Origin: Alicyclobacillus acidiphilus NBRC 100859
GTDB lineage: Bacteria; Bacillota; Bacilli; Alicyclobacillales; Alicyclobacillaceae
Length of the DNA stretch: 34,191 bases
Assembly: GCF_001544355.1 (NCBI RefSeq)
Contig: NZ_BCQI01000029.1
Location: 1 to 34,191 of the forward strand
Reading direction: 5' to 3'
Positions 12,586 to 24,028 of this stretch are shown one piece after another. The notes below the pieces were generated by a model. That model saw only the letters and a list, made by a program, of their open reading frames with translations, was not told the origin of the DNA and ran no database searches. The stretch's first letter is position 1; the number at the start of each line of letters is the position of its first letter. The position numbers and the translations under genes are program-made.

Positions 12586-14322
12586 ATGATTCCAGTTCGG
12601 GAGTTTGTCGCGGGGTTCGAATACGAAGCAGATGTCTTGGCCGGAGATCTTGGATTGAGTGAGCTTTGTCGAGACGTAATCTTCGTAAGCGACCCGAAGA
12701 TCTGGCTGCAAAATGTCAATGACGCGATGTACGAACATACGCTCGTGTTTCTGCAAGCTGGTCAATTTCCGGGCTACTCCCCCACATTTGATTTGCTCTT
12801 GCGCTTTTTCCACCAGACGGGCGTTGTAGGTGTCCTGTTTCAGGGCGGCAAGCGTTCGGACTTTCCAAGGTCGACGCTCGTACTTGCGGATCAGTTGGAA
12901 ATACCGCTGATTTGGTTCAAGGATTCGCTCGATTATTCTCTGATCGCGAGACAATTTTATACGACTGTTCTTGAGCAGCGTCAAAGCGCCGAGAAACAAT
13001 TCGCTGAAGCACGAAGACGATTGGAAAGACAATTTGAGGAATCAACGTCATTATCCGCATGGTTGGATCAGGTTGAGCACGTATTGTTTGTGAAAGCGAA
13101 ACTAGCGTGGGCGAAGACAGATGCGAACCATCGTCGGAATGAACGATGGCATACATTTGGAGGCGGCAGAACTTTGCAACTTCCGATTCAGGTGTTGGAT
13201 CGCGTGTTTCTTCTGCAGTTGACCCCAGAGCCGCACTGTTTGCTGTATCGTCCGGATTACGAAACGATGTGGTTGGAAGAGCTCACTGGCGTGCTCACTT
13301 CGCAGACGGGATTTTTTCTACTGGTGGAGCTTCCCGGAATTCTTCGGCAGAGTGACTGGGCGTGCTCGTTTGAGAGTGTCGTCTACTATTCGATCTCGCG
13401 GTTGCCTATTATGAACGCGAAGGTCTTTGGCGCCCCACGTCAGTCCACCGCACCGACATGGTTGCAAGACGTGCTGGAGACATTGTCCATACGGCGCAGG
13501 TTGGAACTGATTGAAACTCCGCCGATTGGCGCGATAAGCATGCTGTGGATATGTGGCGTGGGCGGTACTTCGAATAGAACGGCCACTCAGACTCGTATTT
13601 CGGACAGGCCGTACGCCTATCGTCGATTTGCGGATTGCACGTTATACCTTCGCGATCAGGCGTTGGTCCTTTCTCACGATATGCAGTTCGCCTCGGGGAA
13701 GGCGTCCACTCTAACCTCTGTTGTCCCTTGGGCGGACTGGCGTGGGAATCAAGGTGTTGCCCTATTCTGGTTTTCCGAAAACGAGGATGTAATGCATCAA
13801 ATGGAACATCGCATTGGACAGTTGATGGAACAACTTCACTTTCGGATGCAAATTCCTTTGCGTTCCTATTTCGTGACGGAGACCTTTGAAGGCATTCATC
13901 GTTCGTACGAAATTCTTGAACGGGTCGTCGAACTGACAGAGCGCTCGTATTTCGATTTTTTGAGCACGTTGTCGCAGTCGAAGATGGTCCAGTTTGCCGA
14001 CAACCAGAACGATTTGGCCAACCGGATATTGCCGAAACCGGGGGAGGACTCGTCCTATGATCACGCCGTCCGCTTGTTGAAGCGGCTAATCGACGAGACG
14101 AATGGAAGTCCCTTGCTGGAAGCTTTGGAGGTCTATTTAGAGTGTGGGGCCAAAATGCAAATGGCCGCGGAGAAGCTGTATTTGCATCGAAACACCCTTC
14201 GGTATCGGCTGAAGCGAGTGGAAAAACTGTTGGGCATCAATTTGGAAGACGATCAAACTCGCTTCACTTACCAGTTGGCGATACGGACTTGGCGCCTACG
14301 CAATCCGAATATCGTTCTGTAG
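12586..14322 (+). CDS. PucR-family transcriptional regulator
   Basis: This is a 578-residue regulator. The N-terminal PucR domain covers roughly residues 5-125, containing LVFLQAGQFPGYSPTFDLLLRFF and GVVGVLFQGG. A long central part without an obvious domain follows. The C-terminal PucR-type helix-turn-helix is at about 510-570, LEVYLECGAKMQMAAEKLYLHR followed by a recognition helix (NTLRYRLKRVEKLLG). Founding members activate purine or allantoin degradation genes. Others control amino-acid or hydantoin utilisation. The start is supported by AAGGGGGAGG upstream of the ATG. A terminator follows, so it is transcribed separately from the permease operon, which it probably controls. Some family members have a GGDEF-like middle, and I cannot see intact motifs of that kind here. 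Confidence 0.88.
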   Translation: MIPVREFVAGFEYEADVLAGDLGLSELCRDVIFVSDPKIWLQNVNDAMYEHTLVFLQAGQFPGYSPTFDLLLRFFHQTGVVGVLFQGGKRSDFPRSTLVLADQLEIPLIWFKDSLDYSLIARQFYTTVLEQRQSAEKQFAEARRRLERQFEESTSLSAWLDQVEHVLFVKAKLAWAKTDANHRRNERWHTFGGGRTLQLPIQVLDRVFLLQLTPEPHCLLYRPDYETMWLEELTGVLTSQTGFFLLVELPGILRQSDWACSFESVVYYSISRLPIMNAKVFGAPRQSTAPTWLQDVLETLSIRRRLELIETPPIGAISMLWICGVGGTSNRTATQTRISDRPYAYRRFADCTLYLRDQALVLSHDMQFASGKASTLTSVVPWADWRGNQGVALFWFSENEDVMHQMEHRIGQLMEQLHFRMQIPLRSYFVTETFEGIHRSYEILERVVELTERSYFDFLSTLSQSKMVQFADNQNDLANRILPKPGEDSSYDHAVRLLKRLIDETNGSPLLEALEVYLECGAKMQMAAEKLYLHRNTLRYRLKRVEKLLGINLEDDQTRFTYQLAIRTWRLRNPNIVL

Positions 14323-14359
14323 GTTTTGTGAACTTACTGTACATTCCATGTGAGATATC

Positions 14360-14401
14360 GGGGCCGTATTGTGCATTGCGCACAAGTTCGGCCCCATTTT
14401 T
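14360..14401 (+). terminator. Rho-independent terminator of the pucR-like gene
   Basis: GGGGCCG at 14360-14366 pairs with CGGCCCC at 14389-14395. A second inner stem forms from TTGTGC (14369-14374) and GCACAA (14380-14385). ATTTTTG follows at once. It is a strong two-tier hairpin with T-tract, 37 bp after the stop codon. Confidence 0.88.
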
Positions 14402-14434
14402 GTTCAAGGCGGCGATACACGCACATTCGGAATC

Positions 14435-14449
14435 GAATTAAGATAATTC
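14435..14449. promoter_or_regulatory. Small palindrome over a -10-like box before the permease gene
   Basis: GAATT (14435-14439) and AATTC (14445-14449) form a palindrome that overlaps GATAAT at 14442-14447, a five-of-six -10 match. There is no good -35, as expected of an activator-dependent promoter. A PucR-type activator is encoded just upstream. Whether the regulator binds here is a guess. Confidence 0.35.
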
Positions 14450-14476
14450 AAACAATAGCAGAGGAGGAAGATTCGG

Positions 14477-15808
14477 ATGACTCAAGCGGAACCCATCAAT
14501 GAAAAGCTCGATGACTATTCGTTATCGAGAGTTCCGGAATCGGACCGCCGACACTGGTTCGGTATCGCAACCATGCGGTTTGGTCAGATGTCAGCGCTCT
14601 CTCAATTCCTGTTGGGCGCGACATTGGGTTTTGGTATGAGTTTTTGGCAGTCGTTTTGGGCCTTGACGCTCGGGGCCGTGATTCTGGAAATCGTTTCGAT
14701 ATTCGTCGGGATCGCGGGGATGAAAGAGGGACTCAGTACCACCATGTTGGTTCGGTGGACTGGTTTTGGCAGGTTTGGTTCCGTCCTCGTCAGCCTGGTC
14801 GTCGCAATATCGCTGGTCGGCTGGTTTGGCGTGCAGAATCAGGTCTTCGCAGATGGGCTGAACCAACTGCTCGGCGGGCCCATTTGGGCATGGTCCATTG
14901 TTACAGGAATCCTGGTCACCTTGGTCGTCATTTACGGGTTCTTGTCGATGGGGTTTACGGCCTACATTACGGTGCCGCTCTTTATGCTCATTGCCTTCAT
15001 CTCGATTGGCCGGGCGCTCGGACATTATTCGCTGGGACATCTCGTCTCGATGCACGCGCCGGGCAGCGCTTTGACGCTGGGTGCGGGTGCGAGCATGGTC
15101 GCGGGTGGATTTATCACAGGGGCCATCATTTCTCCGGATATGACGCGTTACAACCGTTCAGTTGGCGATGTCATTAAGCAAACCGTGCTCGGGATTACCC
15201 TTGGTGAGTATCTCATTGGTCTCATTGGTGTACTTCTTGCACATGCGATGAAATCTTCCAATGTCATCACGATTGTCATGTCGACGAGTGGTGTGGTTGG
15301 CACGGTTGTACTCGTGACGGCGACGCTGAAGATTAACGACTGGAACTTGTACTCTTCTTCGCTCGGTATCGTGAACTTATTTGATGTCGTGTTCAAGAAA
15401 CGCGTCAGTCGCGTCGGTGTCACGATTTTGTTTGGCGCGCTTGGCACGTTGCTCTCCGTCCTCGGTATCCTGAATCAATTTGAAGGTTTCCTTTCGTTAC
15501 TGGGTGTGGCAGTGCCGCCAGTTGGCGGCATTATGGCTGTCGAATATTTCTGCATACGGCGATATAAAGACGAGCTTTCACAGTCGAGAGAACAAGGCGT
15601 CCTGCCGAGTTCGTATGAGTCCTGGAATCCCCTCACGCTGATTTGCTGGATTGGGGCGTTCTTGGTCGGCGAGTTCGTGAAGTGGGGAATTCCGTCCATC
15701 AACTCGCTCGTCGTGGCGGCCGTGGCGTACTTCGTATTGAACAAGCTGGTCAATCGGAACCGGACTGTGACATTTGGAAGCGTGAGTACGAAGGAACTCG
15801 CGAACTGA
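14477..15808 (+). CDS. NCS1-family nucleobase/allantoin-type permease (CodB-like)
   Basis: This 443-residue secondary transporter has about 12 hydrophobic segments beginning near residue 35. The cytoplasmic N-terminus ends with YSLSRVPESDRRHWFGI, a typical CodB-like lead-in. FGMSFWQSFWALTLG, SLVGWFGVQNQVFADGL and ISPDMTRYNRSVGDVI are family marks of the cytosine permease branch, which imports purines, pyrimidines, hydantoins or allantoin with H+ or Na+. GAGGAGGAAG precedes the ATG. It is the first gene of the transcription unit that continues with DUF917 and HyuA genes, and presumably brings in their substrate. The specific substrate cannot be named. Confidence 0.9.
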   Translation: MTQAEPINEKLDDYSLSRVPESDRRHWFGIATMRFGQMSALSQFLLGATLGFGMSFWQSFWALTLGAVILEIVSIFVGIAGMKEGLSTTMLVRWTGFGRFGSVLVSLVVAISLVGWFGVQNQVFADGLNQLLGGPIWAWSIVTGILVTLVVIYGFLSMGFTAYITVPLFMLIAFISIGRALGHYSLGHLVSMHAPGSALTLGAGASMVAGGFITGAIISPDMTRYNRSVGDVIKQTVLGITLGEYLIGLIGVLLAHAMKSSNVITIVMSTSGVVGTVVLVTATLKINDWNLYSSSLGIVNLFDVVFKKRVSRVGVTILFGALGTLLSVLGILNQFEGFLSLLGVAVPPVGGIMAVEYFCIRRYKDELSQSREQGVLPSSYESWNPLTLICWIGAFLVGEFVKWGIPSINSLVVAAVAYFVLNKLVNRNRTVTFGSVSTKELAN

Positions 15809-15812
15809 ATAT

Positions 15813-15843
15813 GACGGGAGACGGGGCCAACTGTCTCCCGGTC
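15813..15843 (+). other. Strong intercistronic hairpin after the permease gene
   Basis: GACGGGAGAC (15813-15822) pairs with GTCTCCCGGTC (15833-15843) with one bulged base and a 10-base loop. It begins 5 bases after the permease stop. No T-tract follows, so it looks like an mRNA processing or stabilising element or a partial terminator within the operon. Confidence 0.55.
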
Positions 15844-15871
15844 ATGTTCTAACTTGACGATAGGCGGTGAC

Positions 15872-16963
15872 ATGGTGAGAAGACTGATTCACACAAAAGA
15901 CATCGATCACCTTGCTTTAGGCGCAACAGTTCTTGGTACCGGCGGCGGTGGAGATCCCTACATCGGTGCCCTGATGGCAAAGCAGGCCATTGAGAAATAT
16001 GGGCCTGTGGAGATGGTTTCGATAGATGAGTTGCACGATGACGATTTGGTGATCCCGTCGGCGATGATGGGAGCACCTACGGTGATGGTTGAGAAAATGC
16101 CGAGCGGCGATGAGCCGGTGAAGGCATTTACGCAATTGGAGAAATTCCTCGGTCGCAAGGCTGCAGCGACCGTGTCGATTGAAGCGGGTGGGCTGAATTC
16201 GACGATCCCGTTCGTGGTCGCGGCAGAACTTGGCATCCCTATTGTCGACGCAGATGGCATGGGGCGTGCGTTCCCAGAGATTCCGATGACGGCACTGCAC
16301 TTTGGCGGCATTTCGGCGACGCCGATGATGGTCGCGGATGAAAAGGGGAACACGGTTCTACTGTCTACTGTGAATGGGGCTTGGACGGAGGCGCTGTCGA
16401 GAAATGCGACGATTGTCATGGGTGGATCTTCCATGTTGGCGCTTTACGGAGCCAATGCGGATAAGATGGCGTCAAATTTGGTACATGGGACCTTATCGAC
16501 AGCCATGAAGATTGGTGAACTGCTCGAAGCGAAAGAGGATGCGGCAGTTCGCCTCGCAAACCTCCTCAAATTCACGGATGGTGTGGAAGTGTTTCGCGGC
16601 AAGTTGACGGACGTCATGCGTCGGACCGTCGATGGATTCGCCCGTGGTACCGTGACGATCGAAGGGATGGGTGTGGACAGCGGATCGGTCTGCAGACTCG
16701 AGTTTCAAAACGAGAATCTCATCGCGATGCGCGATGGGGAGCCCGTTGCGACGGTGCCAGATTTGATTACGGTTTTAGATCAAGAGACGATTCACCCCAT
16801 TACGACGGAAGAGCTGCGCTACGGCCAACGCGTGATTGTCATCACGATGCCTTGCGCACCCGTATGGCACCGGCCCGAGTGCTTGGAGCTGGTCGGGCCG
16901 AGGTACTTCGGATACGATTTCGACTTTAAACCGCTTCGGCCACTGACAACACAGAACGCGTAA
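15872..16963 (+). CDS. DUF917 protein, copy 1 (S-methyl-thiohydantoin desulfurase-like family)
   Basis: This 363-residue protein belongs to the DUF917 family. From memory, Pfam has renamed the domain after S-methyl-thiohydantoin desulfurase, and the exact reaction here is unknown. The N-terminal glycine loop LGTGGGGDP is at residues 21-29. MMGAPTVMVEKMPSGDE, DADGMGRAFPE and the C-terminal PDLITVLDQET...ELRYGQRV are all typical. The open frame begins at a TTG at 15854, but ATG 15872 follows AGGCGGTGA and suits the family N-terminus. It is directly before a HyuA-like gene, the standard partner of this family. Copy 2 (18571) is its close paralogue. Confidence 0.85.
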   Translation: MVRRLIHTKDIDHLALGATVLGTGGGGDPYIGALMAKQAIEKYGPVEMVSIDELHDDDLVIPSAMMGAPTVMVEKMPSGDEPVKAFTQLEKFLGRKAAATVSIEAGGLNSTIPFVVAAELGIPIVDADGMGRAFPEIPMTALHFGGISATPMMVADEKGNTVLLSTVNGAWTEALSRNATIVMGGSSMLALYGANADKMASNLVHGTLSTAMKIGELLEAKEDAAVRLANLLKFTDGVEVFRGKLTDVMRRTVDGFARGTVTIEGMGVDSGSVCRLEFQNENLIAMRDGEPVATVPDLITVLDQETIHPITTEELRYGQRVIVITMPCAPVWHRPECLELVGPRYFGYDFDFKPLRPLTTQNA

Positions 16964-16997
16964 GTGACTGACTCGAGAATGGCTAGGAGGAAACTGT

Positions 16998-18584
16998 ATG
17001 ACTTACCGCTTGGGAATTGACGTTGGTGGGACGAATACGGACGTCGTTTTATTGGATAAGGAAAATCGTGTGATTGCGAAGACGAAAACGGCAGTCACTT
17101 CAGATATTGTCACGGGTATTCGCGCCGGCGTAGGCCGAGTTCTTGAGCAAAGTGGCGTGGATGGTGCACAAATTTCCCACGCAATGCTTGGCACGACGCA
17201 GGTGACCAACGCCATTATCGAGCGCCGCGAACTGAATGATGTGGCGATTGTTCGCTTGGGCGCGCCGGCGACGCGGGCTGTCAAGCCGTTAGCCGGTTGG
17301 CCCGACGATTTGCGCGCCCGCTACGCCGAGTACTCCTGGATTGTCGGTGGCGGACACGAGTTCGATGGCCGTGAAATCGCATCACTCGACGAGGCGGAGA
17401 TTCGCAGTATCGCCGAATCGGTGAAGGGGAAAGTTCAGGCAGTCGCCATCACGGGCGTGTTCTCACCTGTGAATACGGACCACGAGGAACGCGCAGCAGG
17501 GATTTTCCGCGAAGTCCTCGGCGAAGAGATTCCTATCTCTCTGTCCTACCAATTGGGCAGCGTTGGGCTGTTAGAGCGAGAGAACGCCACGGTGTTGAAC
17601 GCGGCTGTGTCGAGTGTCGCGAAGCGGGCGACGATGTCGTTCCAGCAAGCGTTAGCCGATCTCGGTGTGCATGCCGCACTCTACCTGGCGCAAAACGATG
17701 GCACGTTGATGTCCGTGGAGTACGCCCTGTTGTATCCGATTCTCACTATCGCCTGCGGACCCACGAATAGTATGCGTGGCGCGGCGTACCTCACGGGCTT
17801 AAAGAATGCGATTGTCGTCGATGTCGGCGGCACGTCGACGGACGTTGGGGTGCTTGTGAATGGATTCCCGAGGGAATCTTTTGTCGCGGTCGATGTGGGC
17901 GGTGTGAGAACCAACTTCCGCATGCCAGACTTGTACTCGATTGGTCTGGGTGGCGGAAGCCGGGTGACCGAGTCGGAAGTTGGCATCGAAGTGGGGCCAA
18001 AGAGTGTGGGTTATCGCATTGTGGAGGAAGGGCGCGCATTCGGCGGCGACACGACGACCTTCACGGACATCGTCGTGGCGCTCGGCAAAGCCACTGTAGG
18101 GACGCACGCGGTCCAATTGCCGACGGACTTCGCACAGAGGGCCTACGATATCGCAATGGCAAAGACGGCGGAGGCCATCGACAGGATGAAGACGAGTGCG
18201 GAGCCTGTGCCGCTGATTTTGGTGGGCGGCGGCAGCGTCTTGCTTCCGAGCGAGTTGGAAGGCGCCTCGGAGGTCCATCGTCCGGAGAACTTTGACGTAG
18301 CCAACGCAATTGGCGCGGCCATTGCTCAGGTGAGTGGACGGGTGGATCGGATATTCGCGATGGATCAGAAGTCGCGCGAGGAAGTCCTGGAAGAGGCCAA
18401 GTCTATCGCGATTGCAGAGGCCATTCGAGCGGGGGCGGAGGCGTCGACCATCGAGATCGTCGAAATTGAAGAGATTCCGATTGCTTACCTGCCGGGCAAT
18501 GCTGTGCGAATCAAAGTGACTGTTGCCGGAACGCTTGCGACGTACAACTTCGGTTCTAAGGTGGGCGCTTATGCGAATCACTGA
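16998..18584 (+). CDS. HyuA-like hydantoinase/oxoprolinase subunit, short form
   Basis: This 528-residue protein combines the hydantoinase/oxoprolinase N-terminal domain and the Hydantoinase_A domain. The ATPase-type phosphate loop GIDVGGTNTDVVLLD is at residues 5-19, and a second loop VVDVGGTSTDVGVLV is near 273-287. YSIGLGGGSRV and ILVGGGSVLLPSEL follow. Family enzymes open 5-membered cyclic imides or lactams, often using ATP. It lacks the long C-terminal extension of full-length 5-oxoprolinases, as is usual for members paired with DUF917. AGGAGG precedes the ATG. Its last 14 bases overlap the start of DUF917 copy 2, so the two products are probably made together and may form a complex. The substrate is unknown. 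Confidence 0.88.
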   Translation: MTYRLGIDVGGTNTDVVLLDKENRVIAKTKTAVTSDIVTGIRAGVGRVLEQSGVDGAQISHAMLGTTQVTNAIIERRELNDVAIVRLGAPATRAVKPLAGWPDDLRARYAEYSWIVGGGHEFDGREIASLDEAEIRSIAESVKGKVQAVAITGVFSPVNTDHEERAAGIFREVLGEEIPISLSYQLGSVGLLERENATVLNAAVSSVAKRATMSFQQALADLGVHAALYLAQNDGTLMSVEYALLYPILTIACGPTNSMRGAAYLTGLKNAIVVDVGGTSTDVGVLVNGFPRESFVAVDVGGVRTNFRMPDLYSIGLGGGSRVTESEVGIEVGPKSVGYRIVEEGRAFGGDTTTFTDIVVALGKATVGTHAVQLPTDFAQRAYDIAMAKTAEAIDRMKTSAEPVPLILVGGGSVLLPSELEGASEVHRPENFDVANAIGAAIAQVSGRVDRIFAMDQKSREEVLEEAKSIAIAEAIRAGAEASTIEIVEIEEIPIAYLPGNAVRIKVTVAGTLATYNFGSKVGAYANH

Positions 18585-19737
18585 AGAGGATTTAGAGGCT
18601 TTGTCTATCGGTGCGGCCATTCTCGGGACGGGGGGCGGGGGGGATCCCCTCATCGGAAAATGGATGGCACAACAGGCCATCCGCGAGCATGGCCCGGTTG
18701 AACTGATTTCTTTGGATGAGGTCGAGAATCATGACGTCGTCTTTCCCGTCGCGATGATGGGGGCACCGACGGTCTTTTTGGAAAAGGTGCCGGCCGGGGA
18801 GGAAGGGTATGTCGCGGTGCGGCGCATGGAGCGCCATTTAGGCAAATCGGTGACGGCGCTATGCCCGATTGAATGTGGCGGGATGAACAGCATGATTCCG
18901 TTTGTCGTCGCCGCCCGGATGGGCTTGCCGGTCGTCGACGGAGATGGTATGGGGCGCGCGTTTCCGGAGTTGCAGATGGAGACGTTCCACATCCTTGGCG
19001 TCTCGGGAACGCCAGCGTGTATTGCAGACGAGTGGGGGAATGTCGTGCTGTTTGAGACGGTGGACAACTTCCGGCTCGAATCGTTTGCGCGCGCGTGCAC
19101 CGTCAAAATGGGCGGGTATTCCCATCTCGTCGATTATCCAATGACGGGTGAACAGGTGAAAAACACCGCCGTTCGCGGGACCGTGACCATGGGGATTCAA
19201 TTGGGAAGGGCTGTTCAAGCAGCGCATCGCAATCATTCGAATCCCGTAGAAGCCGTCCTTGCGGCCACCCGCGATACCATCTATGGGCACGGAATTGCGC
19301 TTTTTCGAGGCAAAGTTGTCGATATTTCGCGACGGACTTCGGACGGCTTCGCAGTCGGCCAAGCGCATCTGCAGGGCTTTGAGGAAGATGCCGGGAAAGC
19401 CATGGTGATCGACTTCCAAAACGAAAATCTCATTGCGAAAGTAGACGGGCAAGTTGTCGCGAGCGTGCCGGATTTAATCACCTTACTCGATCCCGACACA
19501 GGCCACGCTATCACCAATGAACGCCTGCGCTACGGCCAACGCGTCGTCGCCATTGGGATTCCGACACCGGAAATGATGCGCAGTGAGGCGGCACTCACGG
19601 TATGGGGGCCGAAGCACTTTGGCTACGATATCCCGTTTGTCCCGCTTGAGCAAGCGTATCCGGCGTTTTATCAACAGGCCGGCGTACCAAACGAGAAAGA
19701 GAAGTATCTAGTTCAATCATCTGATGCTTCGCGTTGA
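18571..19737 (+). CDS. DUF917 protein, copy 2
   Basis: This 388-residue protein closely resembles copy 1. It has LGTGGGGDP at residues 18-26, MMGAPTVFLEKVPAGEE, DGDGMGRAFPELQM and PDLITLLDPDTGHAITNERLRYGQRV. It has about 25 extra C-terminal residues rich in Glu, Lys and Tyr. The open frame extends to a TTG at 18523, but ATG 18571, preceded by AAGGTGG, gives the family N-terminus and only a 14-base overlap with hyuA. The high similarity to copy 1 on the other side of hyuA suggests duplication, or a heteromeric pair sharing one HyuA subunit. Confidence 0.85.
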   Translation: MRITEEDLEALSIGAAILGTGGGGDPLIGKWMAQQAIREHGPVELISLDEVENHDVVFPVAMMGAPTVFLEKVPAGEEGYVAVRRMERHLGKSVTALCPIECGGMNSMIPFVVAARMGLPVVDGDGMGRAFPELQMETFHILGVSGTPACIADEWGNVVLFETVDNFRLESFARACTVKMGGYSHLVDYPMTGEQVKNTAVRGTVTMGIQLGRAVQAAHRNHSNPVEAVLAATRDTIYGHGIALFRGKVVDISRRTSDGFAVGQAHLQGFEEDAGKAMVIDFQNENLIAKVDGQVVASVPDLITLLDPDTGHAITNERLRYGQRVVAIGIPTPEMMRSEAALTVWGPKHFGYDIPFVPLEQAYPAFYQQAGVPNEKEKYLVQSSDASR

Positions 19738-19752
19738 ACGGGAAAGCGATTT

Positions 19753-19780
19753 GGGAGGGTGCCACCTAGGCATTCCTCCC
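19753..19780 (+). other. Intercistronic hairpin between DUF917 copies 2 and 3
   Basis: GGGAGG (19753-19758) pairs with CCTCCC (19775-19780), and an inner TGCC (19760-19763) pairs with GGCA (19769-19772). The sequence after it is pyrimidine-rich (TTCCTCTTT) but not a strong T-tract. It may attenuate or process the message before the third copy. Confidence 0.5.
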
Positions 19781-19819
19781 TTCCTCTTTAAAGCGACTGA
19801 ATGGATAGGAGTGTGTGCC

Positions 19820-20917
19820 ATGACGAAGCGGCAATTGACCGTTCGTGATGTGGAAGCGGCCGTATTGGGCGGAAAGTTTCTCGGCGGCGGCGGGGGTGGC
19901 TGGACAGCGGATGGTCTTGCCCTTGCAAACGAGGCGATGCAGACGAACGCGCCGATGCTCATCAGCCCAGATGAGTGCGGCGACGACGATATCATTGTGA
20001 CGGCTGCGTTGGTTGGTGCGCCGGCTGCCAAAGACCAATACGTCGAACCGGCTCACTTTGTGCGGACCATCGAACGAATGGAGTCGGCATTAGGAACCAA
20101 GGTGGCTGGGGTCATTACGAACGAAAACGGCGCGGCGGCTACGGTGAACGGATGGATTCAAGCCGCGAAGCTGGGCATTCCAGTCATTGATGCACCCTGC
20201 AATGGTCGCGCACATCCGACGGGTGTGATGGGATCTATCGGTCTCCACCAACTGAAGGACTTCGTCAGTATTCAAGCGGCAAGTGGTGGCCGCCTGGATA
20301 AATACGTGGAAATCGTCGTGAAAGCTTCCTTGGAACGCGCGGCCACACTCGTTCGGAACGCATCTGTTCAGGCAGGCGGTGTGGTGGCGGTTGCGAGGAA
20401 CCCTGTCACCGCAGGTTATGTGATGCAACATGGTGCCGTTGGCGCCATTACCCAAGCCATCGAGTTGGGGCACGCCATGCTGCGGGCGCAGGCGCATGGT
20501 GCGCGGGCCGTAGTGGACGCCGCTTTGGACTTCATGAGTGGAGCGCGCATTGCGACGGGTAAGGTGGCGCATGTTTCGCTGCGGACAGAAGGCGGCTTTG
20601 ATGTGGGGGAAGTCACCATCGGCGACGTGGATATGACGTTCTGGAACGAGTACATGACCTTGGAGAGAAACGGTGAGCGGCTAGCGACGTTCCCAGACCT
20701 CATCATGACGATGGATACGAACACGGGGATGCCGCTATTAACGGCAGAGTTGCAGCCTGGATTGGATGTCACGGTCGTCTGTGTCCCAAGGGCTCATGTC
20801 AAACTCGGCGCGGGTATGCATGACGAAGCCTTGTTCAAAGTCGTTGAAACTGTCGTGAACAAGGAGATTTGCAAATACGTATTTGCGCCATCGATTGGGA
20901 CGGCGCAGACGGTGTAA
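19820..20917 (+). CDS. DUF917 protein, copy 3 (divergent)
   Basis: This 365-residue DUF917 protein is clearly more distant than copies 1 and 2. The glycine loop reads LGGGGGGW (21-28) without the DP. The DGMGRAFPE motif becomes CNGRAHPTGVM, and the C-terminal ELRYGQRV becomes ELQPGLDVTVV. PDLI followed by MD is retained. The start ATG 19820 follows TAGGAGTG. The open frame extends upstream to 19724 through the hairpin and is not used. The changed motifs suggest a different substrate or a structural role rather than a redundant enzyme. Functional assignment is open. Confidence 0.83.
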   Translation: MTKRQLTVRDVEAAVLGGKFLGGGGGGWTADGLALANEAMQTNAPMLISPDECGDDDIIVTAALVGAPAAKDQYVEPAHFVRTIERMESALGTKVAGVITNENGAAATVNGWIQAAKLGIPVIDAPCNGRAHPTGVMGSIGLHQLKDFVSIQAASGGRLDKYVEIVVKASLERAATLVRNASVQAGGVVAVARNPVTAGYVMQHGAVGAITQAIELGHAMLRAQAHGARAVVDAALDFMSGARIATGKVAHVSLRTEGGFDVGEVTIGDVDMTFWNEYMTLERNGERLATFPDLIMTMDTNTGMPLLTAELQPGLDVTVVCVPRAHVKLGAGMHDEALFKVVETVVNKEICKYVFAPSIGTAQTV

Positions 20918-20977
20918 CTGAAGTGGGTTTGAACGCGCAGGATTGCTACATCGATTTGAGACGAGGAGCGGTGTGTG

Positions 20978-21928
20978 ATGACATTGAAGCAGACATTGGA
21001 CATTTATGAACTGTTGGATGACGCAAACGTCAATGGGGAACAGGTGCGGGATTTTTTCTTGCGCCGCGGCGCGGGGCAAGTAGAAGTTGAGCGGGTGGAG
21101 GGAGAATCGGGATGGACCGATTTTATTCAGGTGTGCATTCCCGGCCGCAGCGGTAAGACAACGGGTGGCGACGCGCCGACGCTTGGGATTATTGGGAGAC
21201 TTGGCGGCATTGGTGCGCGGCCTGAGCGAATTGGACTTGTGTCGGATGGCGATGGTGCCATGACTGCACTGACGAGTGCGCTGAAGTTAATTGAAATGCA
21301 AGCAAAAGGCGACAAGCTGCCTGGAGATGTTCTCGTGGCGACGCACATCTGTCCGAATGCGCCCACGATTCCGCACGAGCCGGTTGCCTTTATGGGATCA
21401 CCTGTGGATATGATGACGATGAATCAACACGAAGTGAGTCCCGAGATGGACGCGATTCTCACCATCGATACGACGAAGGGAAACCGCGTGTTTAACCACC
21501 GTGGCGTCGCGATTTCGCCGACGATTAAAGAAGGCTGCATCCTTCGAATCAGTGATGATCTCGTCTCCCTCCTCGAAATCTCATCCGGCCAATTGGCGCA
21601 TACATTCGCGGTGACGATGCAGGATATCACGCCGTACGGAAATAACTTGTATCATATCAACAGTATCATGCAACCGTGCACCGCGACGAACGCACCGGTC
21701 GTCGGCGTCGCCATCACGACACAGAGCACTGTTCCAGGATGTGCGACAGGGGCAAGTCACGAGACGGATATTGCGATGGCTGCGCGGTTTGCCATCGAAG
21801 TGGCAAAGGCGTATGGTGCAGGAAACTGTTCCTTTTACGATGAAGAGGAGTTTCAACGATTTCAAGCGCTGTACGGGTCGATGAACCACCTGCAGACGCT
21901 TGGCAAGTCTGTGAACGCAGGTATCTGA
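20978..21928 (+). CDS. DUF1177 family protein
   Basis: This 316-residue protein of unknown function matches the DUF1177 family over its full length. It begins MTLKQTLDIYELLDDANVNG and contains LVSDGDGAMTALTSALKL, VATHICPNAPTIPHEPVAFMGSPVDM and TTQSTVPGCATGASHETDIAMAARFA. Conserved Cys, His, Asp and Glu residues (for example HICPNAPTIPHEP) suggest a metal or catalytic site, but this is inference. GAGGAG at 20963-20968 lies 9 bases before ATG 20978. A GTG one codon earlier is possible. Its position between DUF917 copy 3 and an M29-like peptidase recalls known associations of this family with amide-degrading enzymes. Confidence 0.85.
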   Translation: MTLKQTLDIYELLDDANVNGEQVRDFFLRRGAGQVEVERVEGESGWTDFIQVCIPGRSGKTTGGDAPTLGIIGRLGGIGARPERIGLVSDGDGAMTALTSALKLIEMQAKGDKLPGDVLVATHICPNAPTIPHEPVAFMGSPVDMMTMNQHEVSPEMDAILTIDTTKGNRVFNHRGVAISPTIKEGCILRISDDLVSLLEISSGQLAHTFAVTMQDITPYGNNLYHINSIMQPCTATNAPVVGVAITTQSTVPGCATGASHETDIAMAARFAIEVAKAYGAGNCSFYDEEEFQRFQALYGSMNHLQTLGKSVNAGI

Positions 21929-21944
21929 TTTCTTACCAGAGAAG

Positions 21945-22898
21945 GTGGACAACATCGGACTTTTGGAGACCTCACGGAAGCTCCTGTCGCAAGCACTCGC
22001 TGTGAAGGCCGGAGAAAGTGTCTTAATCATCTCCGATGGAACGAGGCCGGAGATTTGCAACGATTTGCATCAGGCGGCACAAAGCCTCGGTGCGGAATCG
22101 ATGATCTTGACGATGAAACCGCGGCGGAGAAGCGGTGAAGAACCACCTGAAGTCGTCGCCTTCGCGATGCAGAAAGCGGATGTCGTCATTTGTCCGACAG
22201 AGCACTCGTTGACGCACACATCGGCGCGAAAACGCGCATCTGAACAGGGGGCCCGGGTTGCGACGATGCCGGGCATCACCCTTGACATGTTCGAAAACGG
22301 GCCGATGACCGCCGATTTTCACCAGGTGGCCGATCTCAGCCGACGCGTAGCGGACGTGCTGACGAAAGGAGATTACGTTCGCATCGAAAAGGATGGGGCT
22401 ATCCTGGAATTTCGGCTGGGGACGCGATTGGGCATCGCCAGCACAGGCATGTACACCGAGAAGGGACAATCGGGGAATATGCCATCGGGAGAGGCTTATA
22501 TTGCGCCGCTTGAGGGGACTGCGAATGGGGAATTGATTGTCGACGGATCGATGGTCGGACTTGGCCTGCTCTCCTCACCCATCAAGCTGACGATTCGAGA
22601 TGGCCTGCTTACTCATGCCGAAGGTGAGCGTGCAGATGAATGGCTCGACAAGCTCGGAAGTAGCCCGAGTGCTCGAAATGTCGCCGAATTTGGCATCGGC
22701 ACCAACGACAAGGCGAGGCTGACTGGCGTCATCCTCGAGGACGAAAAGGCGCTGGGGACCATTCACGTGGCGTTTGGCAGCAATGCGACATTCGGTGGAA
22801 CAGTCGAAGCTGGCGTTCACTTGGATGCCGTGGTGACCAAGCCGACGGTCCATTTGGACGGGAATCTTGTGATGCGGGATGGGGGGTTGATGGTGTAG
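21945..22898 (+). CDS. M29-like leucyl aminopeptidase (AmpS/PepT type)
   Basis: This 317-residue putative metallo-aminopeptidase is shorter than classical M29 enzymes (about 400). The M29 metal set seems present: Glu248 (EFGIGTN), Glu265 (ILEDEK), His274 (IHVAFG), His292 and Asp294 (VHLDAVV). It would release an N-terminal amino acid or hydrolyse an amide product made by the preceding enzymes. The start is uncertain. GTG 21945 is the first possible codon, but it lies inside the ribosome binding site AGAAGGTGG. The next in-frame options are a rare ATC at 21954 at ideal spacing and a TTG at 21963. It is the last gene before the operon terminator. Confidence 0.8.
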   Translation: MDNIGLLETSRKLLSQALAVKAGESVLIISDGTRPEICNDLHQAAQSLGAESMILTMKPRRRSGEEPPEVVAFAMQKADVVICPTEHSLTHTSARKRASEQGARVATMPGITLDMFENGPMTADFHQVADLSRRVADVLTKGDYVRIEKDGAILEFRLGTRLGIASTGMYTEKGQSGNMPSGEAYIAPLEGTANGELIVDGSMVGLGLLSSPIKLTIRDGLLTHAEGERADEWLDKLGSSPSARNVAEFGIGTNDKARLTGVILEDEKALGTIHVAFGSNATFGGTVEAGVHLDAVVTKPTVHLDGNLVMRDGGLMV

Positions 22899-23221: not shown

Positions 23222-24028
23222 TTACTTATGTAGCGTTTCATGCAACCTATCGAGCAACGTATCAGTCGTTGGTGCAATGATGACTTCAATTCCGGTCGCT
23301 TTGATCTGAGAAATCACTTCGGAATCCAGGTGATCGTCGACAACCAATTGATCGAAGTCCGTAAACTCCGCGAAGCGGTTGAATGCTCTTACATCGTACT
23401 TGGAGCTATCTATCACTAAAGTTCTGATCTTTGAGCTTTGGGCCATCAGACGTTTCACTTCGGATTGCTGAATATTGGCGTCCGTGAGTCCGTGCTGGAC
23501 AGAAAATCCTGTGGCAGTAATGAATGAGCGATTCACATGCAGAGATTTGATGGTTTCAGTGACCGCTGAACCTATCGTAAGTTGAGGGGTATGTTGCAGC
23601 GGTCCACCCAGAACCAGGACTTCGATACCAGGTTTATTCACAAGCACATTGACGACAGGGATGGCGTTTGTCACTACCGTTATGCCTAAGTCCTCGGGTA
23701 AGTGACGGGCTACCTCCATCATCGTGGTCCCTGCGTCCATGAAAATGGTATCTCCGGGTGCAACCAAAGTTGCACACAACTTCCCTAAGGCGGTTTTCAG
23801 GTGTTGGTTCTCAGAGGAACGAACATCGACTGGTACATCCGTATTTTGTCCTGCAGGAATGGCACCGCCGTACGTGCGGCGAACAAGTCCGAGTTGTTCA
23901 AGCTTCACCAGATCTCGGCGAATGGTCATTTCCGACACGCCAAACATCGTGCTAAGCTCCTGCACGGATACTTCTTCTTTGGTCAGGATATAATCCAAAA
24001 TTGTCTTCTGCCGAACTTCAGCTATCAT
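23222..24028 (-). CDS. DeoR/GlpR-family transcriptional repressor
   Basis: This 268-residue repressor has an N-terminal DeoR helix-turn-helix at about residues 8-60, VSVQELSTMFGVSEMTIRRD, followed by LGLVRRTYGGA. The C-terminal DeoRC sensor domain has the phosphosugar-binding isomerase fold, with DAGTTMMEVARHLP and VTNAIPVVN, then TGFSVQHGLTDANIQQSEVKRLM and DSSKYDVRAF. Such proteins respond to a sugar phosphate. The gene diverges from the polyol operon. Its AAAGGAG (24039-24045, minus strand) is 10 bases before the ATG. The effector is probably a xylulose- or arabitol-phosphate, which is inferred from the neighbours. Confidence 0.92.
   Translation of the reverse strand: MIAEVRQKTILDYILTKEEVSVQELSTMFGVSEMTIRRDLVKLEQLGLVRRTYGGAIPAGQNTDVPVDVRSSENQHLKTALGKLCATLVAPGDTIFMDAGTTMMEVARHLPEDLGITVVTNAIPVVNVLVNKPGIEVLVLGGPLQHTPQLTIGSAVTETIKSLHVNRSFITATGFSVQHGLTDANIQQSEVKRLMAQSSKIRTLVIDSSKYDVRAFNRFAEFTDFDQLVVDDHLDSEVISQIKATGIEVIIAPTTDTLLDRLHETLHK

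Follow-up and report, generated by a model that had tools for sequence, protein, structure and literature searches.

Cyclic dipeptides (2,5-diketopiperazines) occur widely, and in a 2013 study none of the peptidases tested could cleave them; the enzymes responsible for their hydrolysis are, according to the same study, still unclear (PMC3852281). The closest described ring-opening systems are the ATP-dependent hydantoinases, 5-oxoprolinases and caprolactamases, which act as two components (HyuA–HyuB or CapA–CapB): for caprolactamase, the proposal is that CapA uses ATP to activate the lactam, which CapB then hydrolyses at a metal site (PMC8453981), and many genes annotated as 5-oxoprolinase may encode lactamases or cyclic dipeptide hydrolases (PMC6061476). 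A further point of comparison is non-CDPS cyclodipeptide oxidases, around which one study found DUF917, AroM and hydantoin racemase genes to be over-represented; the same study describes the DUF917 family as not experimentally characterised (PMC11055893). Here we analyse a cluster of eight genes (positions 12586–22898) on a 34,191-base contig of Alicyclobacillus acidiphilus NBRC 100859 (NZ_BCQI01000029.1; the whole contig is herein referred to as the window), which belongs to a genome of 3.86 Mb that is 99.96% complete. The genes encode a PucR-type regulator, an NCS1 permease, three DUF917 proteins (DUF917a, b and c), a short HyuA, a DUF1177 protein and an M29-like metalloenzyme. This is a real, recurrent and composite catabolic cluster built from two conserved modules. 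Our favoured reading, held tentatively and at somewhat under an even chance, is that the modules together open a small cyclic amide and then yield amino acids, with cyclic dipeptides as the leading substrate class.

All eight open reading frames (ORFs) lie on the + strand in tight order and belong to the families given in the original prediction made from the DNA letters, with Pfam matches above cut-off for everything except the N-terminal domain of PucR (25.7 bits, cut-off 33.5). A search of 41 genomes from the genus, family and order detected DUF1177 in 9 at E 0.001, with 8 of these above cut-off, and the window's copy is 95% identical to the Alicyclobacillus suci protein. We compared the neighbourhood with stretches read from six further genomes (L093–L098). 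The order NCS1–DUF917–HyuA–DUF917–(DUF917)–DUF1177 is kept in five of these (L093 and L095–L098), which rules out chance assembly, and the HyuA genes and DUF1177 form one co-directional cluster in Alicyclobacillus relatives and in genome G016. The original prediction had turned on such linkage in related genomes, and linked the genes are. The sixth stretch (L094, from genome G001) carries instead a common arrangement that we call module A, with a DUF917c-type gene, DUF1177, PucR, a racemase, AroM, OPT and M29.

The ends of the cluster are variable, since PucR, DUF917c and M29 come and go among relatives. A PucR of the window type lies upstream in L095, L096 and L098 (39–53% identity), whereas none was found in the stretches read from L093 and L097. 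An intact DUF917c is kept by L093, L095 and L098 and a broken one by L097 (A. suci); L096 lacks it, each of its own three DUF917 proteins being 27–31% identical to the window's DUF917c. In the window and in L093 (93% identity) the gene after DUF1177 is M29, which occurs also in L094 and was not found in the L095–L098 stretches. In A. suci, DUF917c is split into two ORFs of 164 and 131 aa (L097 12006–12807; L013 9029–9830) and a long HyuA, instead of M29, lies downstream of DUF1177, so that module A there seems to be in decay or replaced.

The HyuA-containing half of the cluster (herein module B) consists of the short HyuA (528 aa; 16998–18584, + strand), an ASKHA-type ATPase subunit with Hydant_A_N (2.7e-37) and Hydantoinase_A matches, flanked by DUF917a (15872–16963, ORF opening at 15854, + strand) and DUF917b (18571–19737, ORF opening at 18523, + strand), the start of which (18571) overlaps the HyuA stop. 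When the window HyuA was searched in 199 Bacillota genomes, 35 were positive at 1e-40, long forms included; short forms (mostly ORFs of 517–585 aa) align over their full length and long forms (mostly 650–720 aa) only to about residue 337. Neighbours were counted in the loci of 25 short forms, the window included, and of 5 long forms. A same-strand DUF917 adjoins HyuA in 24 of the 25 short-form loci (L128 being the exception), HyuB lies within 1.5 kb in none of them, and HyuB is also missing from the window's eight genes. None of the five long-form loci has DUF917, and HyuB was likewise not seen in their flanks; HyuB comes immediately after a long HyuA in L013 and L092. At 1e-60, 121 plasmid records match HyuA. 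The short HyuA–DUF917 pair is seen in four annotated plasmid loci: it occurs with three DUF917 genes and an ABC importer (of peptide type, judged by gene order) in Haloferax mediterranei, with PucR and a cytosine permease in Listeria innocua, with an ABC importer and a racemase in Rhizobium, and with a cytosine permease in Parageobacillus.

The window HyuA has the N-terminal domain, the catalytic domain and the two phosphate-binding DxGGT motifs of the HyuA and CapA subunits, but it is short and is partnered by an adjacent DUF917 instead of HyuB. Its two phosphate motifs read DVGGT; a regular expression recovered both in 23 of the 25 short-HyuA loci and failed in L129, a long-called ORF with the first motif outside the first 40 residues, and in L149, cut by a contig end. 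The residues flanking the motifs are invariant in 12 aligned short HyuAs. The partner is a different matter: no His or Cys reaches 80% conservation in the HyuA-linked DUF917 clade, which thus shows no sign of the Asp-His-Asp-His metal site of CapB (PMC8453981); the second step must therefore differ from that of CapB. By analogy with caprolactamase and 5-oxoprolinase, the short HyuA would activate a ring amide with ATP, and DUF917a and b would replace HyuB as the partner with which the ring is opened.

The three DUF917 genes, which are all those detected in the genome, do not form a uniform set. The original prediction was right to place them in one family (all match S-Me-THD_N/C) but overlooked that they fall into two clades with different partners. 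In the DUF917 tree, one clade holds DUF917c (19820–20917, ORF opening at 19724, + strand) with 31 DUF1177-adjacent rows and one other; the second holds DUF917a and b, the latter in a subclade apart from a, with 29 HyuA-adjacent rows and 10 others. DUF917c carries a CNGRAHP motif (C159 and H164 in ORF numbering) and DUF917a the motifs DGMGRAFPE and GPxxFGY. The fold is represented by one solved structure without an assigned function, and in the literature searched, which left most subscription papers outside its coverage, DUF917 otherwise appeared only in tables or gene lists as far as the texts could be seen. One such instance is a permease–DUF917–hydantoinase trio of Clostridioides difficile (CDR20291_1615 to 1617), which is among the genes changed in an hcpR study (PMC12915319).

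The original prediction emphasised thiohydantoins, and one could suppose that the cluster degrades a thiohydantoin or S-methyl-thiohydantoin by a route like those for ergothioneine or methylhistidine, one DUF917 being the desulfurase. The (S-methyl) thiohydantoin desulfurases do share their Pfam family with these proteins, and DUF917c, the closest of the three, matches one model over its full length (312 bits, 5.4e-93). However, its scores against the two desulfurase models (312 and 283 bits) lie under the curated cut-offs of 440 and 450, and those of DUF917a and b are far lower (103–129 bits; at best 129 for a and 108 for b). No genome among 199 Bacillota genomes passes the thiohydantoin desulfurase cut-off, and of the 10 that have a match at 1e-50 or better (the window's included), 9 have it next to DUF1177. 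The genome also lacks any match at 0.001 to the urocanase family PF01175, of which we take thiourocanate hydratase to be a member, and any TIGR01879 carbamoylase above cut-off; the prediction's own caveat that this is not the plain ergothioneine route is thereby borne out, and its emphasis on thiohydantoins is not. We regard such a route as very improbable.

The other half of the cluster has a life of its own. A scan of the DUF1177 alignment against a public genome collection returned 376 stretches with a relative, from which the best 80 loci were kept. AroM is present in 72 of these best loci, M29-like genes in 57, PucR in 55, the Asp/Glu racemase family in 46 and DUF917 in 40, followed by OppA, OppB and OppC (35 each), M20 peptidases (34) and OPT (31), and far behind by HyuA (8) and NCS1 (7). 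The arrangement is also tight, with AroM immediately downstream of DUF1177 in 61 of the 80 (median gap 45 bp) and DUF917 immediately upstream in 35 (median gap 21 bp). A peptide importer (OPT or Opp) accompanies 65 of the 80 and NCS1 alone 5; the remaining 10 show no OPT, Opp or NCS1, some of them being cut by contig ends. Because these loci are the best matches to the window protein, a second search was made in the 199 Bacillota genomes, which were evenly drawn. DUF1177 occurs in 23 of them; among the 22 besides the window's, 10 have AroM no farther than about 1.5 kb away (an eleventh, G048, has it in the neighbouring locus L178), 8 have an adjacent c-type DUF917 and 6 have same-strand Opp genes within 1.5 kb. 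From both sets of counts, the usual company of DUF1177 is the peptide-type module A and not HyuA. The original prediction had read the eight genes as a single pathway set; they are linked, but it overlooked a separate module, tied to peptide transport, AroM and a racemase, of which DUF1177 and M29 are members.

Module A likewise crosses wide taxonomic distances. An archaeal cluster (Salinigranum) reads Opp–DUF917–DUF1177–AroM–aminopeptidase–racemase, and two Enterobacterales plasmids carry OPT–DUF1177–AroM–PepE–racemase without DUF917, PepE (annotated as a dipeptidase) sitting in the place of M29. A conjugative plasmid of Klebsiella pneumoniae from cattle faeces (L209 6559–11966) has IclR–OPT–DUF1177–AroM–PepE–racemase between insertion sequences, so that the module can be mobile. 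In G053 (L205 and L207), DUF1177 is split into two overlapping ORFs.

This company allows a reading in which module A handles linear isomerised or D-residue peptides (e.g. aspartyl peptides), its racemases and peptidases converting and cleaving them, and the HyuA module is a mere neighbour with another substrate. The peptide importers, the M20, M29 and PepE peptidases and the Asp/Glu-family racemases of module A are all in keeping with it, as is the fact that NCS1–DUF917–HyuA and DUF1177 are divergent neighbours both in Evansella (L061) and on a plasmid of Planococcus, where the window has the two joined. Against this stand the co-directional clusters described above, the relationship of the module A DUF917 to a family of ring-acting enzymes, and cyclodipeptide-oxidase-like genes near module A in 3 of the 80 best loci (L046, L061 and L081; by Pfam, the pair in L061 is a nitroreductase and DUF6092). 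We consider the linear-peptide explanation quite improbable.

DUF1177 itself (20978–21928, ORF opening at 20975, + strand; Pfam DUF1177 3.1e-137) is predicted to adopt the clan-MH metallopeptidase fold (M28/M42/M20-like), although it has no credible sequence match in the Protein Data Bank (PDB) and its profile alignments to M42 and M20 are not significant. Judged by the order of secondary-structure elements, D90, D164 and H261 appear to be kept, whereas the His-x-Asp and Glu-Glu positions of the M28, M42 and M20 enzymes appear to be replaced. Within the coverage of our literature search, and going by title and abstract, DUF1177 appeared only in an unrelated fungal study.

The M29-like protein (317 aa; 21945–22898, + strand) matches Peptidase_M29 with 39.4 bits (cut-off 27; 4.2e-10). 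Five of its residues (E183, E248, H274, H292 and D294) do not vary across an alignment of 35 proteins; the first three align with E250, the Glu of LGEV and H345 of AmpT, and H292 and D294 with VHVD of PepS, positions that we take to be metal ligands. It thus agrees with the M29 aminopeptidases AmpT, AmpS and PepS at these positions but is shorter (317 against about 410 aa), and its N-terminal part has an invariant SxxHT motif. The best PDB sequence match is the dioxygenase NicX, and we considered and rejected the identity of a 2,5-dihydroxypyridine dioxygenase: H292 and D294 align with HLD of NicX, but at the position of E248 NicX carries a His of the His-His-Asp set that presumably forms its iron site, which makes a hydrolase more likely. 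In the favoured scheme, DUF917c (with its conserved Cys/His motif), DUF1177 and the M29-type metalloenzyme would release amino acids from the linear product or from a second cyclic form, an activity suggested by the predicted fold and the aligned ligands.

The proposal that cyclic dipeptides are the substrate draws on the peptide importers, peptidase-type enzymes and racemases of module A, on the oxidase-like pairs near it and on one physiological precedent. Non-CDPS cyclodipeptide-oxidase clusters resemble module A in their DUF917, AroM and hydantoin racemase genes, OPT/ABC peptide transporters and, often, peptidases; they differ in that no oxidase is among the window's eight genes and the pair is rare beside module A, and the study does not mention DUF1177 and does not settle what the oxidase clusters do (PMC11055893). 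The precedent is Paenibacillus chibensis DSM 329, which is able to hydrolyse cyclo(Asp-Phe) and cyclo(Asp-Asp) (PMC3852281), and the genome of P. chibensis NBRC 15958 holds module A, two short-HyuA/DUF917 pairs and one long HyuA; Asp-containing cyclic dipeptides are perhaps the substrate. A more ambitious version, which we judge unlikely, is a dedicated cyclic dipeptide pathway in which short HyuA and DUF917 form a new two-component ATP-dependent ring opener, joined to an independently distributed DUF917c–DUF1177–(AroM)–M29 peptide module of archaea and bacteria with DUF1177 as a new class of clan-MH enzyme.

The next candidates are hydantoin-like rings. The NCS1 protein (14477–15808, + strand; Transp_cyt_pur 1.3e-24, 87 bits against a cut-off of 23.5) would, as a member of its symporter family, import a small, neutral cyclic amide as the first step. 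Its nearest solved structure is the cytosine permease CodB (1.7e-32), with the hydantoin permease Mhp1 farther off (3.6e-8); at 191.7 bits it falls under the cytosine permease equivalog cut-off of 326, so that cytosine is not fixed as the substrate. In a hydantoin- or dihydropyrimidine-type ureide route, NCS1 would import a 5-substituted hydantoin or nucleobase-derived ring, HyuA and DUF917 would make an N-carbamoyl or related product, and DUF1177/M29 would act as the amidohydrolase that frees the amino acid. This would suit the PucR-type regulator, an N-methylhydantoinase as the best solved relative of HyuA, and the frequency of NCS1 (15 of 20) and of Asp/Glu/hydantoin racemase-family genes (9 of 20) in the 20 larger module B stretches, drawn from 26 full-length short-type rows besides the window. 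It is opposed by the usual importers of module A, which are peptide transporters, by a permease nearer CodB than Mhp1, and by the lack of the carbamoylase: TIGR01879 has no match above cut-off in the genome (best 35.4 bits against 204), and no CN-hydrolase is among the eight genes, CN-hydrolase-type carbamoylases not having been searched genome-wide. We hold the ureide route to be somewhat unlikely.

Several observations nonetheless weigh against the favoured reading, some by lending weight to the ureide route. An NCS1 importer of CodB type suits a nucleobase- or hydantoin-like ring better than a peptide. Three DUF1177 loci that hold NCS1 and HyuA also contain a CN-hydrolase of the nitrilase superfamily (L033 6884–7741, L041 10903–11715 and L092 8937–9755), which might be the carbamoylase required by a carbamoyl route, and in L126 a partial CN-hydrolase match comes after HyuA. 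PMC11055893 suggests that DUF917 proteins are hydantoinases; in PMC3852281, recombinant D-hydantoinases did not cleave cyclic dipeptides and the authors were undecided whether the same enzymes act on both compound classes. The P. chibensis genome is not labelled as the assayed strain, and its long HyuA is a further complication. The replaced positions in DUF1177 mean that it may be no active metallopeptidase, some close relatives lack M29, PucR or DUF917c or have it in broken form, AroM has no match in the window or the whole genome, and the module A racemase is absent from the window, with one Asp/Glu racemase elsewhere in the genome. Finally, the best 80 loci are no random sample, and the neighbour profiles were derived by clustering the neighbours of those same loci. 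Given the permease, the CN-hydrolases, the hydantoinase suggestion and the strain mismatch, cyclic dipeptides lead but are not certain; catabolism of a small cyclic amide, as originally predicted, remains the best description, the substrate, the ATP dependence of ring opening and the order of steps being what we infer.

The regulator (578 aa; 12586–14322, + strand; HTH_30 1.8e-21), which scores only 106 bits against a profile of module A PucR proteins, stands ahead of the cluster and probably controls both modules. A gap of 154 bp separates it from NCS1 and contains, at 14360–14397 (+ strand), a GC-rich stem-loop followed by a U-run (z -1.79, weak), a possible terminator or attenuator; from NCS1 onward the gaps range from -14 to +82 bp, using likely starts of DUF917a, b, c and DUF1177 chosen from translations and homologues. 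Upstream lies a sugar-type set (LacI, PfkB, FGGY kinase, class II aldolase, ABC and lyxose isomerase-like genes) and downstream a second one (DeoR, ABC, dehydrogenase, HAD and FGGY genes), of which DeoR (23222–24028) comes next on the opposite strand, so that the cluster probably ends at M29.

The gene families concerned occur in Bacillota, Proteobacteria and archaea, Haloferax volcanii among the last, and the split of DUF917 into clades, together with the pairing of short HyuA with DUF917, gives precise complexes that can be assayed. The cluster appears to join two widespread, uncharacterised gene sets, one probably for the ATP-driven opening of small nitrogen-containing rings and the other probably for the breakdown of peptide-like compounds, and is thereby a testable candidate for the microbial breakdown of very stable cyclic dipeptides.

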